28,324 bases of DNA from a virus. The first letter of the stretch is position 1, and the number at the start of each line of letters is the position of its first letter. The translations under genes and the position numbers were made by a program. Below the pieces are notes generated by a model, which was given only the letters and a program-made list of their open reading frames with translations, was not told where the DNA came from and did not search any database. The DNA is taken from positions 1 through 28,324 of the IMG/VR virus record IMGVR_UViG_3300008108_000618, one strand, 5' to 3'. This document shows positions 3,474 through 5,043 of this stretch, in pieces.

Positions 3474-4022
3474 TTATTGGTTTGTGATTTCGTTAATACG
3501 TTTCTCTATTTTGATAAGGTCGGCCATTGCGGATGCGTCATTAATTGACCTTTGAGCGGATGCGCGTTTCATGGCATCGGTAATATCCTGACATTTAAGA
3601 ATCAGTTTGCTTTTATAGTCCGTTAAGTCCTCTTTGCCATGTGTATTGGTAGCGTCTGCATCCTTACTGTCATCCAGTAGAAATAATCCCGATAAGGCAT
3701 ACTTCCGTGCATATGATGAAGATGCACCAAAGCATTGAGCCGCTGACATTCCTTTTGTATTTAAGTCTACACCTGCCTGAGCAGTTACCTTTATACCATC
3801 TTTGAAATCTGGGAATAATAATGTTGCGGTAGTTTCTATAAATATAACTGAGCCAACCTCTTTAATCTCATCAGATAATTTTAATACGCATTCGTATTTT
3901 TTAAGTAAAGGTTTAAGAGCCTCCAGAATTTCCTCTGCGTTTCTGTAATAATATTTACCAAAAGAATTAAATTGACCTTTAGGTACTTTTAAATCAGATT
4001 GTATTTGTATTAATTGTTTCAT
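3474..4022 (-). CDS. erf: ERF family single-strand annealing recombinase
   Basis: A 182-residue protein of the ERF superfamily, which anneals complementary single strands during phage recombination. Features seen: an N-terminal basic region, FGKYYYRNAEEILEALKPLL, a beta-rich central part, and the family hallmark near residues 95-125, GASSSYARKYALSGLFLLDD followed by SKDADA. The start at 4022 lies inside the 3' end of the homing endonuclease gene (29-bp overlap). The 5' half is AT-rich with AT-biased codons, whereas the 3' third (from about codon 110) is richer in GC, like the downstream genes. A decayed second copy of the first about 35 codons lies upstream of the endonuclease (4711-4814). 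The complete protein appears functional. The mosaic composition suggests that its 5' part was replaced together with the endonuclease. Confidence 0.85.
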   Translation of the reverse strand: MKQLIQIQSDLKVPKGQFNSFGKYYYRNAEEILEALKPLLKKYECVLKLSDEIKEVGSVIFIETTATLLFPDFKDGIKVTAQAGVDLNTKGMSAAQCFGASSSYARKYALSGLFLLDDSKDADATNTHGKEDLTDYKSKLILKCQDITDAMKRASAQRSINDASAMADLIKIEKRINEITNQ

Positions 4023-4710
4023 AATATTTAAAGTTTGTTTTATTTGGGTTTTTGTTTTGTAACATTGCTCTTAATGTAGAATAATTCATGTTTAGCAATA
4101 TTGCAACTTCTTTAGCGCAATCATATATTTCTCCAGTTTTAATATTTATTACTTTTTTTGCTTTATTATTTTTCCCTAATAATTGCATACCCTTTATTTT
4201 ATCTGATATAATTTTTCGTGTTTCTTCAGTATGTTTTTTACCTTTAAAATATGCATTGCCATAAGCGGGATTATCTTTCCCATATTTAATTCTTTTTTTA
4301 ATATGCTCAGGAGATTGTTTTTTGCCTTTAATATAACTTAATAATTTATCTTTTTGTTCTTTGGATAACTTTTTACCTTTATGAATTTTTGACATTTTTA
4401 ATAAAGTTTCTTTTGAAAAAGATTTTATTTTATCTCCTTTCAATGGTATTTTTAAATTAAGATTATATCTATGTAATACATTATGTTTTATGCACCAATA
4501 CCTTTCCTTTTCTAATAAATTGTCTTTATTGCATAGCTCAAGTATTATAAACCTATGGTTCTTGTAACCATATTTATTTATTGAATTTCTAATTTTATGC
4601 TGCTCCTTAATTCTCAGGTATTTGTATTGTTTAATTCTTCTTTCAATATTTATTGAACTCCCAACATATTTGGCATTTACTGGATTTATTATCATGTAAA
4701 CTCCTACCAT
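3994..4710 (-). mobile_element. GIY-YIG homing endonuclease (NUMOD3 and C-terminal HTH)
   Basis: A 238-residue GIY-YIG endonuclease. The catalytic domain begins at the N-terminus: GVY (residues 3-5), YVG (15-17), the catalytic Arg in INIERRIKQY, and the catalytic Glu in LLEKERYWCIKH. Several NUMOD3-like DNA-binding motifs follow (SKETLLKMSKIHKGKK, SKEQKDKLLSYIKGKK, TEETRKIISDKIKG). A C-terminal NUMOD1/IENR1-like helix-turn-helix comes last (INIKTGEIYDCAKEVAILLNMNYSTLRAML). Such enzymes cleave alleles lacking the insertion and spread by repair. The gene is much more AT-rich than its neighbours, a sign of transfer. It is flanked on both sides by ERF 5' coding sequence, which points to insertion into the annealing-protein gene. 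It is free-standing: no intron or intein features are seen, and both ERF copies carry their own start codon. Confidence 0.85.
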
Positions 4711-4814
4711 ATCGCAAACTTAAGGATATATCTTCAGGTTTCCAAATAAACAAAGCTGTTGAATTGGTTTTTAGGAGCTTTCAGCTCCGATTGAATGTTA
4801 ATAAGCTGTTTCAT
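4711..4814 (-). pseudogene. Decayed 5' remnant of a second ERF gene
   Basis: An ATG at 4814 opens a frame reading MKQLINIQSELKAPKNQFNSF before stopping after 26 codons. This matches the start of the intact ERF protein (MKQLIQIQSDLKVPKGQFNSF) at 17 of 21 positions. Beyond the break, shifting frames restores WKPEDI and then LKFAI, corresponding to NAEEILEAL in the intact protein, so homology runs to about codon 35, right up to the endonuclease start. At the DNA level 9 of the 17 conserved residues use different codons, with the remnant GC-richer. Its start overlaps the upstream gene's end by 17 bp, the tight packing expected for the original ERF locus. I infer this is the original gene's 5' end, cut off by the endonuclease insertion. 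Confidence 0.75.
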
Positions 4815-5043
4815 TTGATATGTTTGAAAATTCTAAAATACCTGCTTTCTTACCTGCATAAAAGATATCGGTCATAAGATATGCAATACGTTCACTATCA
4901 AAAGAAAATCTCATCTTTTTGTAATCAGTATCAGTATTCTCAATTGAAATGATGGTAAAGGAATGTAACATATTCTTATCGGCAATATCCTGATATTCTT
5001 TTATGTTTTCAGGATGTGTAAGAATAAAATCAGTAATAATCAT
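4798..5043 (-). CDS. Hypothetical small early protein
   Basis: An 81-residue, slightly acidic protein with no family I recognise. It begins MIITDFILTHPENIKEYQDIADKN, has a beta-type centre (MLHSFTIISIENTDTDYKKMRFSF), and ends in a helix (SERIAYLMTDIFYAGKKAGILEF). There is no membrane segment. Its ATG overlaps the stop of the upstream 39-residue membrane protein gene as ATGA, and its 3' end overlaps the start codon of the decayed ERF copy. This indicates that it belonged to the same translationally coupled unit before the endonuclease arrived. Function is unknown. Confidence 0.55.
   Translation of the reverse strand: MIITDFILTHPENIKEYQDIADKNMLHSFTIISIENTDTDYKKMRFSFDSERIAYLMTDIFYAGKKAGILEFSNISNETAY

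Follow-up and report, generated by a model that had tools for sequence, protein, structure and literature searches.

The locus described here raises the question of why a phage should carry the start of its erf gene twice, with an endonuclease gene between the two copies, and of how such an arrangement might spread. We analyzed the whole of a 28,324-base stretch of phage DNA (hereafter the window), IMG/VR virus record IMGVR_UViG_3300008108_000618, whose gene neighborhood, based on Pfam and PHROG matches, includes the terminase large subunit, the portal and single-strand-binding-like proteins. The early region of the window also has an imperfect direct repeat of about 90 nt (positions 2099-2187 and 2246-2334, 73% identity). 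Phages with and without a homing endonuclease gene (HEG) are referred to as HEG+ and HEG-.

The erf stub and the uninvaded relatives

The features of the locus are all read from the minus strand, in the order of an 81-residue gene, an erf stub, a 40-nt leader, a GIY-YIG HEG and a complete erf. The upstream 81-residue gene (4798-5043, from the ORF list) forms the left flank of the insertion. The stub (4751-4814, 64 nt, MKQLINIQSELKAPKNQFNSF) consists of native erf codons 1-21 and one additional base, with no erf continuation, and is followed by the leader (4711-4750), as delimited by pairwise alignment to native erf. The HEG (3994-4710) encodes 238 residues with a NUMOD3 motif, and the intact erf (3474-4022) encodes 182 residues, of which residues 2-133 match the Pfam ERF superfamily (PF04404, 3.6e-32). 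As the earlier note on this DNA had described, the stub, the endonuclease and the complete erf were all present, and the erf start codon lies within the 3' end of the endonuclease gene, the ORF list giving an overlap of 29 nt. When the intact ERF was used as a tblastn query within the window it produced two matches only, its own gene and the stub (77% amino acid identity, E 2.2e-5). The same arrangement was identified in two other IMG/VR contigs, 3300031963_007345 (100% nt identity) and 3300042691_022011 (99.99%), and on this basis an assembly chimera or artifact was ruled out.

Relatives of the window's phage were gathered by a scan with the ERF protein, and four of these (L005, L006, L007 and L009) were uninvaded, each having one erf start and no second copy. 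The comparison with L005 was especially informative: the two genomes have 92% nucleotide identity over 3.3 kb up to position 4751, where the similarity stops, and it resumes at the erf start, L005 itself having erf as a single intact gene. A HEG+ phage (L003) and the HEG- phage L005 were derived from one metagenome, 3300031963. The presence or absence of the HEG is therefore polymorphic between otherwise similar genomes, as seen for the window versus L005 and also for L197 versus 12 empty relatives (see below).

The earlier note had proposed that erf is interrupted by a mobile endonuclease that supplies a divergent 5' end for the gene, a proposal that it held would be contradicted by HEG-free relatives that still carried both ERF N-termini. 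The empty sites in the four relatives, once aligned across the junctions, supported the proposal, and no HEG-free relative with both N-termini was seen in a tblastn search upstream of 173 ERF loci, in which a second erf N-terminus was identified only in copies of the window's phage. We also looked at 85 HEG loci for target starts that are duplicated on either side of the whole HEG. The phage of the window was the only one to have this arrangement, all other matches being ORF overlaps or weak, short nucleotide matches.

The stub was identical to the erf start of L009 at 64 of 64 nucleotides and to that of L005 at 63 of 64, and the resemblance to native erf broke off abruptly after codon 21. It had been described as a decayed N-terminus with two frameshifts, a description that we revise: since the match is perfect and then collapses immediately, the stub is a clean truncation of a verbatim native start, and the supposed frameshifts are the boundary to the leader. 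A tandem duplication of erf was also ruled out, as the stub is the native allele of the relatives and the 5' part of the full copy is not. The leader is probably derived from the element, and a weak erf-like match within it (GGAAACCTGAAGATATA, 14 of 17 positions) may represent an older stub.

The last codons and the stop of the 81-residue gene overlap the stub (ATGAAACAGCTTATTAA, read as ..N-E-T-A-Y-stop), and the same overlap between this gene and the erf start was found in the empty site of L005 and in L008, a HEG+ phage of the same group. Coding of the end and stop of the upstream gene thus independently helps to retain the first nucleotides of the stub. L008 retains just about the length of erf start that overlaps the end of the upstream gene.

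The endonuclease and the hybrid erf gene

The window HEG was matched by the Pfam profiles for GIY-YIG (PF01541, 1.2e-9) and, in a NUMOD-type DNA-binding tail, NUMOD3 (1.4e-6), by a PHROG homing endonuclease family (1.5e-27) and by the profile of the I-TevI catalytic domain structure (1mk0_A, 4.8e-6). The motifs GVY..YVG and the residues R25 and E69 are present in the window HEG and are invariant in our alignment A2. Since it is a separate ORF with its own stop codon, we assign it, from its sequence, as a freestanding (intronless) homing endonuclease gene with putative cleavage activity. Its closest GIY-YIG relatives, in L014 and L015 (55 and 52% amino acid identity), are each directly upstream of an erf, and the erf genes beside them belong to another ERF subfamily. 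The C-terminal domain of the window protein (residues ~166-231; window 3994-4200) is about half identical to the C-terminal domains of HNH endonucleases in L018, L019 and L020, which we attribute to domain shuffling between nuclease types.

The intact erf of the window is a hybrid. Divergence from L005 is 35% as far as aligned nucleotide 276 (codon 93) but 6% beyond, and the breakpoint was strongly supported (max-chi2 71, permutation p 0.0005). We refer to the two segments as the replacement 5' part (about codons 1-94; 3741-4022), delimited by this divergence and by the GC profile, and the resident 3' part (3474-3740), which is common to the uninvaded phages and about 94% identical in nucleotides to L005. 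The AT bias previously noted for the intact copy is real and lies in the 5' part, where GC content per 60 nt is 22, 33, 28 and 28%, lower than the 35-44% of L005, and thereafter 33-43%, compared to 33-45% over the length of the empty-site erf of L005.

The replacement had also been characterized as differently coded. That its 5' end is divergent was upheld, and synonymous recoding was not: over the first ~92 codons the window and L005 have 68% amino acid and 66% nucleotide identity, with dN 0.25 and saturated dS. By these values the differences are not purely synonymous but leave the protein conserved, and the 5' part is a true divergent homologous allele. Its exact donor was not found, the best HEG- match being L034 with 76% identity over 205 nt. 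We also considered an NSFGKY protein change as a mark of resistance in HEG+ phages, a candidate that was abandoned as HEG-free loci commonly have NKFGNY as well.

HNH endonucleases beside erf in other phages

The proposal that an endonuclease brings a divergent erf 5' end could be extended to two independent cases with HNH endonucleases. The first is L008, which belongs to the window's phage group and has an unrelated HNH_3 endonuclease at the same place, with 15 nt of the native erf start (ATGAAGCAGCTTATT) kept 5' of it. The first 92 codons of the L008 erf are AT-rich and 41% divergent from the empty relative L007, the rest only 3%, with the breakpoint at codon 92 (left 0.41, right 0.03, permutation p 0.0005).

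The second case is a set of four contigs from a third phage group, L196-L199, with another HNH (63% amino acid identity, in its best segment, to the L008-led HNH query alignment). The ORF of this HNH begins at the native erf start position and shares its MSLL, and 12 HEG- relatives have the same upstream gene and a native erf. For L197 versus L076 the breakpoint was at codon 97 (left 0.46, right 0.00, permutation p 0.0005), such that the hybrid-erf breakpoints of the three independent HEG+ groups (window, L008 and L197) are at most 5 codons apart. Across the four contigs, the 733-nt block comprising the HNH and erf codons 1-100 has 99.3-100% identity, compared to 89-97% for the 270 nt upstream and 94-96% for the 3' part of erf (Fisher p 1e-7 to 1e-17). 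As the block is near-identical and its flanks differ by 3-11%, the HNH and the erf half move as a unit, and we regard this block as the best evidence for an endonuclease and a replacement half traveling together.

To place these HNHs, 80 contigs were collected by HNH sequence alone and split at a score of 118 bits. At or above this score, erf was directly downstream of 17 of 18 HNHs; below it this was so for 0 of 62, and for 0 of 3 more distant HNH loci. Four of the 18 high-scoring contigs had also supplied query sequences, and with these removed 13 of 14 adjoin erf. The 18 include near-copies (L196-L199; L204, L206 and L207) and represent about nine independent lineages. On an HNH tree of 70 rows, in which most deep branches are unresolved, the erf label required 2 changes versus 15.4 in shuffles, with none of 500 shuffles as low. 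In addition, L460, which came to light solely through its ERF sequence, has an upstream HNH of the erf-linked type. Together, these data point to an HNH clade tied to erf.

The one exception, L195:2504-3629, is near L008 and more closely related to the HNH query group than any other (76%), and adjoins a non-erf gene encoding a 231-residue protein (phrog_19042) for which the single-sequence structure model was poor (pLDDT 41). Two further arrangements were observed among HNH loci: in L220 (1403-2396) a more distant HNH is directly upstream of a gene for a Sak-type annealing protein, and in L308 (Pantoea phage PdC23, 2480-3576) an HNH is directly downstream, not upstream, of erf. None of the named phage records holds the fused HNH plus ERF query, or the GIY-YIG plus ERF query, over 80%.

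Spread of the element and comparison with known systems

We consider it likely that the locus is a cassette of the freestanding homing-endonuclease type, in which an endonuclease gene is coupled to a divergent first half of its own target, erf, and that it spreads by homing. The sequences show an insertion relative to empty sites, a verbatim stub and a hybrid erf with a sharp breakpoint, and likewise co-transfer of the block in L196-L199 and recurrence with two unrelated endonuclease types. We further propose that the endonuclease has erf itself as its target and would leave the divergent allele uncut, that a break induces the copying and that ERF participates in the repair. In such a scheme the endonuclease would cut native erf early, close to the end of the stub at the conserved NSF|GKY codons, and the broken genome would be repaired from a co-infecting HEG+ phage. 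Repair would copy in the endonuclease and the donor erf 5' end, and recipient sequence would resume at about codons 92-97, a conserved stretch that precedes GASSSYARKYAL. The outcome would be a complete erf and the loss of the native, cleavable allele, with the old start left as a stub.

The alternative that fares best, although we think it unlikely, is that the HEG homes at or upstream of the erf start and that the divergent 5' end was carried along passively, by co-conversion or hitchhiking, and plays no part in resistance. Homing normally co-converts flanking sequence (PMC2988022), and the breakpoint at codons 92-97 may be merely the first well-conserved stretch. Additional weight for a passive tract comes from phages in which insertion and recoding are uncoupled. 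In the phages L014, L015, L106 and L110-L115 the endonuclease is exactly between a 58-residue gene and erf, and a comparison of L014 with L107 (P0001-type phages) showed the HEG at the erf start and an erf without recoding past codon ~13. L014/L107 thus rule out that recoding always accompanies the HEG, and there was no comparable step in L015, L106, L110 or L112. Since erf is hardly recoded in L014/L107, protection there may be provided by the insertion alone, or the site may be elsewhere. A divergent replacement half accompanies insertion in three of the four groups with a close HEG- relative, a tally that excludes L200-L205, L212 and L460, for which no close HEG- relative was found.

Against a passive tract, the left junction of the window is inside erf, after codon 21, and not upstream of it, and three independent HEG+ groups have a hybrid erf with breakpoints within 5 codons. 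A further argument comes from L034, which has no endonuclease directly upstream of erf and in whose 16.9 kb the L008 HNH query found no match. Its erf start is native (24 of 24 nt as in L005), and nucleotides 25-126 of its erf are of the window-type allele (88 of 102 positions, versus 68 of 102 for L005, p 0.0015), this being a single contig in which the segment spans the end of the stub and the presumed cleavage target. Divergence over the presumed target with no adjacent HEG is what a selected resistant allele would look like, and the pattern fits such an allele having been acquired without the endonuclease or left after endonuclease loss.

Ordinary mosaicism, in which a foreign HEG-erf segment was acquired by recombination, whether illegitimate or homologous, with no endonuclease-driven copying, seems to us very improbable. 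ERF-type annealing proteins promote recombination between diverged sequences, which would favor such an origin, and HEG-free phages of the window's group also have mosaic erf genes. For L005 versus L007, both HEG-free, the best erf breakpoint was near codon 98 (0.33 versus 0.14), and the HEG-free L009 has a sharply divergent patch, at about codons 80-120, in an otherwise near-identical erf. Because of this mosaicism in HEG- phages, part of the hybrid pattern may be a general recombination joint. Mosaicism as the whole explanation is opposed by the near-identity of the HEG and erf 5' block in four phages with diverged flanks, by the recurrence of one HNH clade beside erf in many phages, and by catalytic domains that are intact in sequence and in frame. 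That the locus is instead a group I intron or other spliced element, with the stub joined to the later erf segment in the mRNA, is scarcely credible even though GIY-YIG and HNH endonucleases are often intron-borne, as searches for Rfam group I and II introns gave no match in the window region (E up to 5), L008, L197, L014 or L106, a group I intron with an endonuclease ORF being ruled out by the lack of an Rfam ribozyme core around the HEG, and as the downstream erf has a start of its own and is complete, and splicing would duplicate the N-terminus.

Returning to the homing cassette, a broader and more tentative reading, to which we give somewhat less than even credence, is that a GIY-YIG lineage and an HNH clade form a guild specialized on single-strand annealing recombinases, each with a cleavage-resistant recoded rescue half. 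If this speculation is correct, the element would be nature's equivalent of a homing gene drive that carries a recoded rescue, it would attack an enzyme that may help to copy it, and resistance alleles with no adjacent endonuclease, such as that of L034, would be in circulation already.

Phage homing endonucleases are known to lie beside the genes that they cut, yet natural sequences seldom reveal how an essential target outlasts HEG insertion and escapes cutting. At the window locus one can read the empty site and the stub as well as the replacement half with its joint, and in L196-L199 endonuclease and replacement half can be seen to have spread as a unit through phages that have diverged. 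That two unrelated endonuclease types have converged on erf suggests that recombination genes are favored targets of homing. As native, invaded and patch-bearing (L034) alleles coexist, cleavage, resistance and drive are directly testable.

Both intronless homing and the fungal elements that combine an endonuclease with a gene end are known precedents; an endonuclease-erf cassette of this kind was not found described in the open-licence literature. The T-even freestanding endonucleases, with their intronless homing (SegA/uvsX, SegF/gene 56, SegG/gene 32 and MobE/nrdB), cut a neighboring gene and co-convert its sequence, uvsX and gene 32 being among the targets of T4-type enzymes (PMC2988022). 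The window element resembles these Seg and Mob systems in that a freestanding GIY-YIG or HNH endonuclease is beside its presumed target, a recombination gene (PMC2988022). It differs in that Seg and Mob genes are between intact genes, with no target-start stub and no Erf-type target in the parts of that source available to us (PMC2988022), whereas the window element is inside the start of its target and supplies a replacement.

Lactococcal skunaviruses have freestanding, I-HmuI-like HNHs at fixed places near core genes (insertion sites H1-H11), for which exclusion activity was shown and neighboring polymorphism was suggested to affect sensitivity (PMC12724721). One of these adjoins a Sak-type annealing protein, at an alignment coverage of only 26%; unlike the window, that is a different annealing-protein family, and the sections consulted describe no stub-replacement architecture (PMC12724721). 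Barth et al. (2023) reported "HEG islands", with HEGs near essential phage genes and at the borders of exchanged DNA (PMC10448857). In the portions of that paper seen, these are at the scale of genes or islands, erf is not among the named markers and no recoded half is described, unlike the window (PMC10448857).

A further parallel is provided by mobile ORFs of fungal mitochondria, known from atp6 of Allomyces macrogynus and from atp6, atp9, cox2 and nad3 of Glomus, where the inserted and native copies of atp6 share only 63.5% of nucleotides (PMC3630166). As in the window, an endonuclease ORF is within an essential gene, a divergent gene end takes over and a native remnant stays; the fungal ORFs replace the 3' (C-terminal) end in mitochondria (PMC3630166), whereas the window element replaces the 5' end, in a phage, with a new start codon. 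The window element thus works like the fungal mobile-ORF hybrids but is not a member of them, as it is the 5' end that is replaced. The erf cassette resembles, in a natural setting, a gene drive whose target has been recoded.
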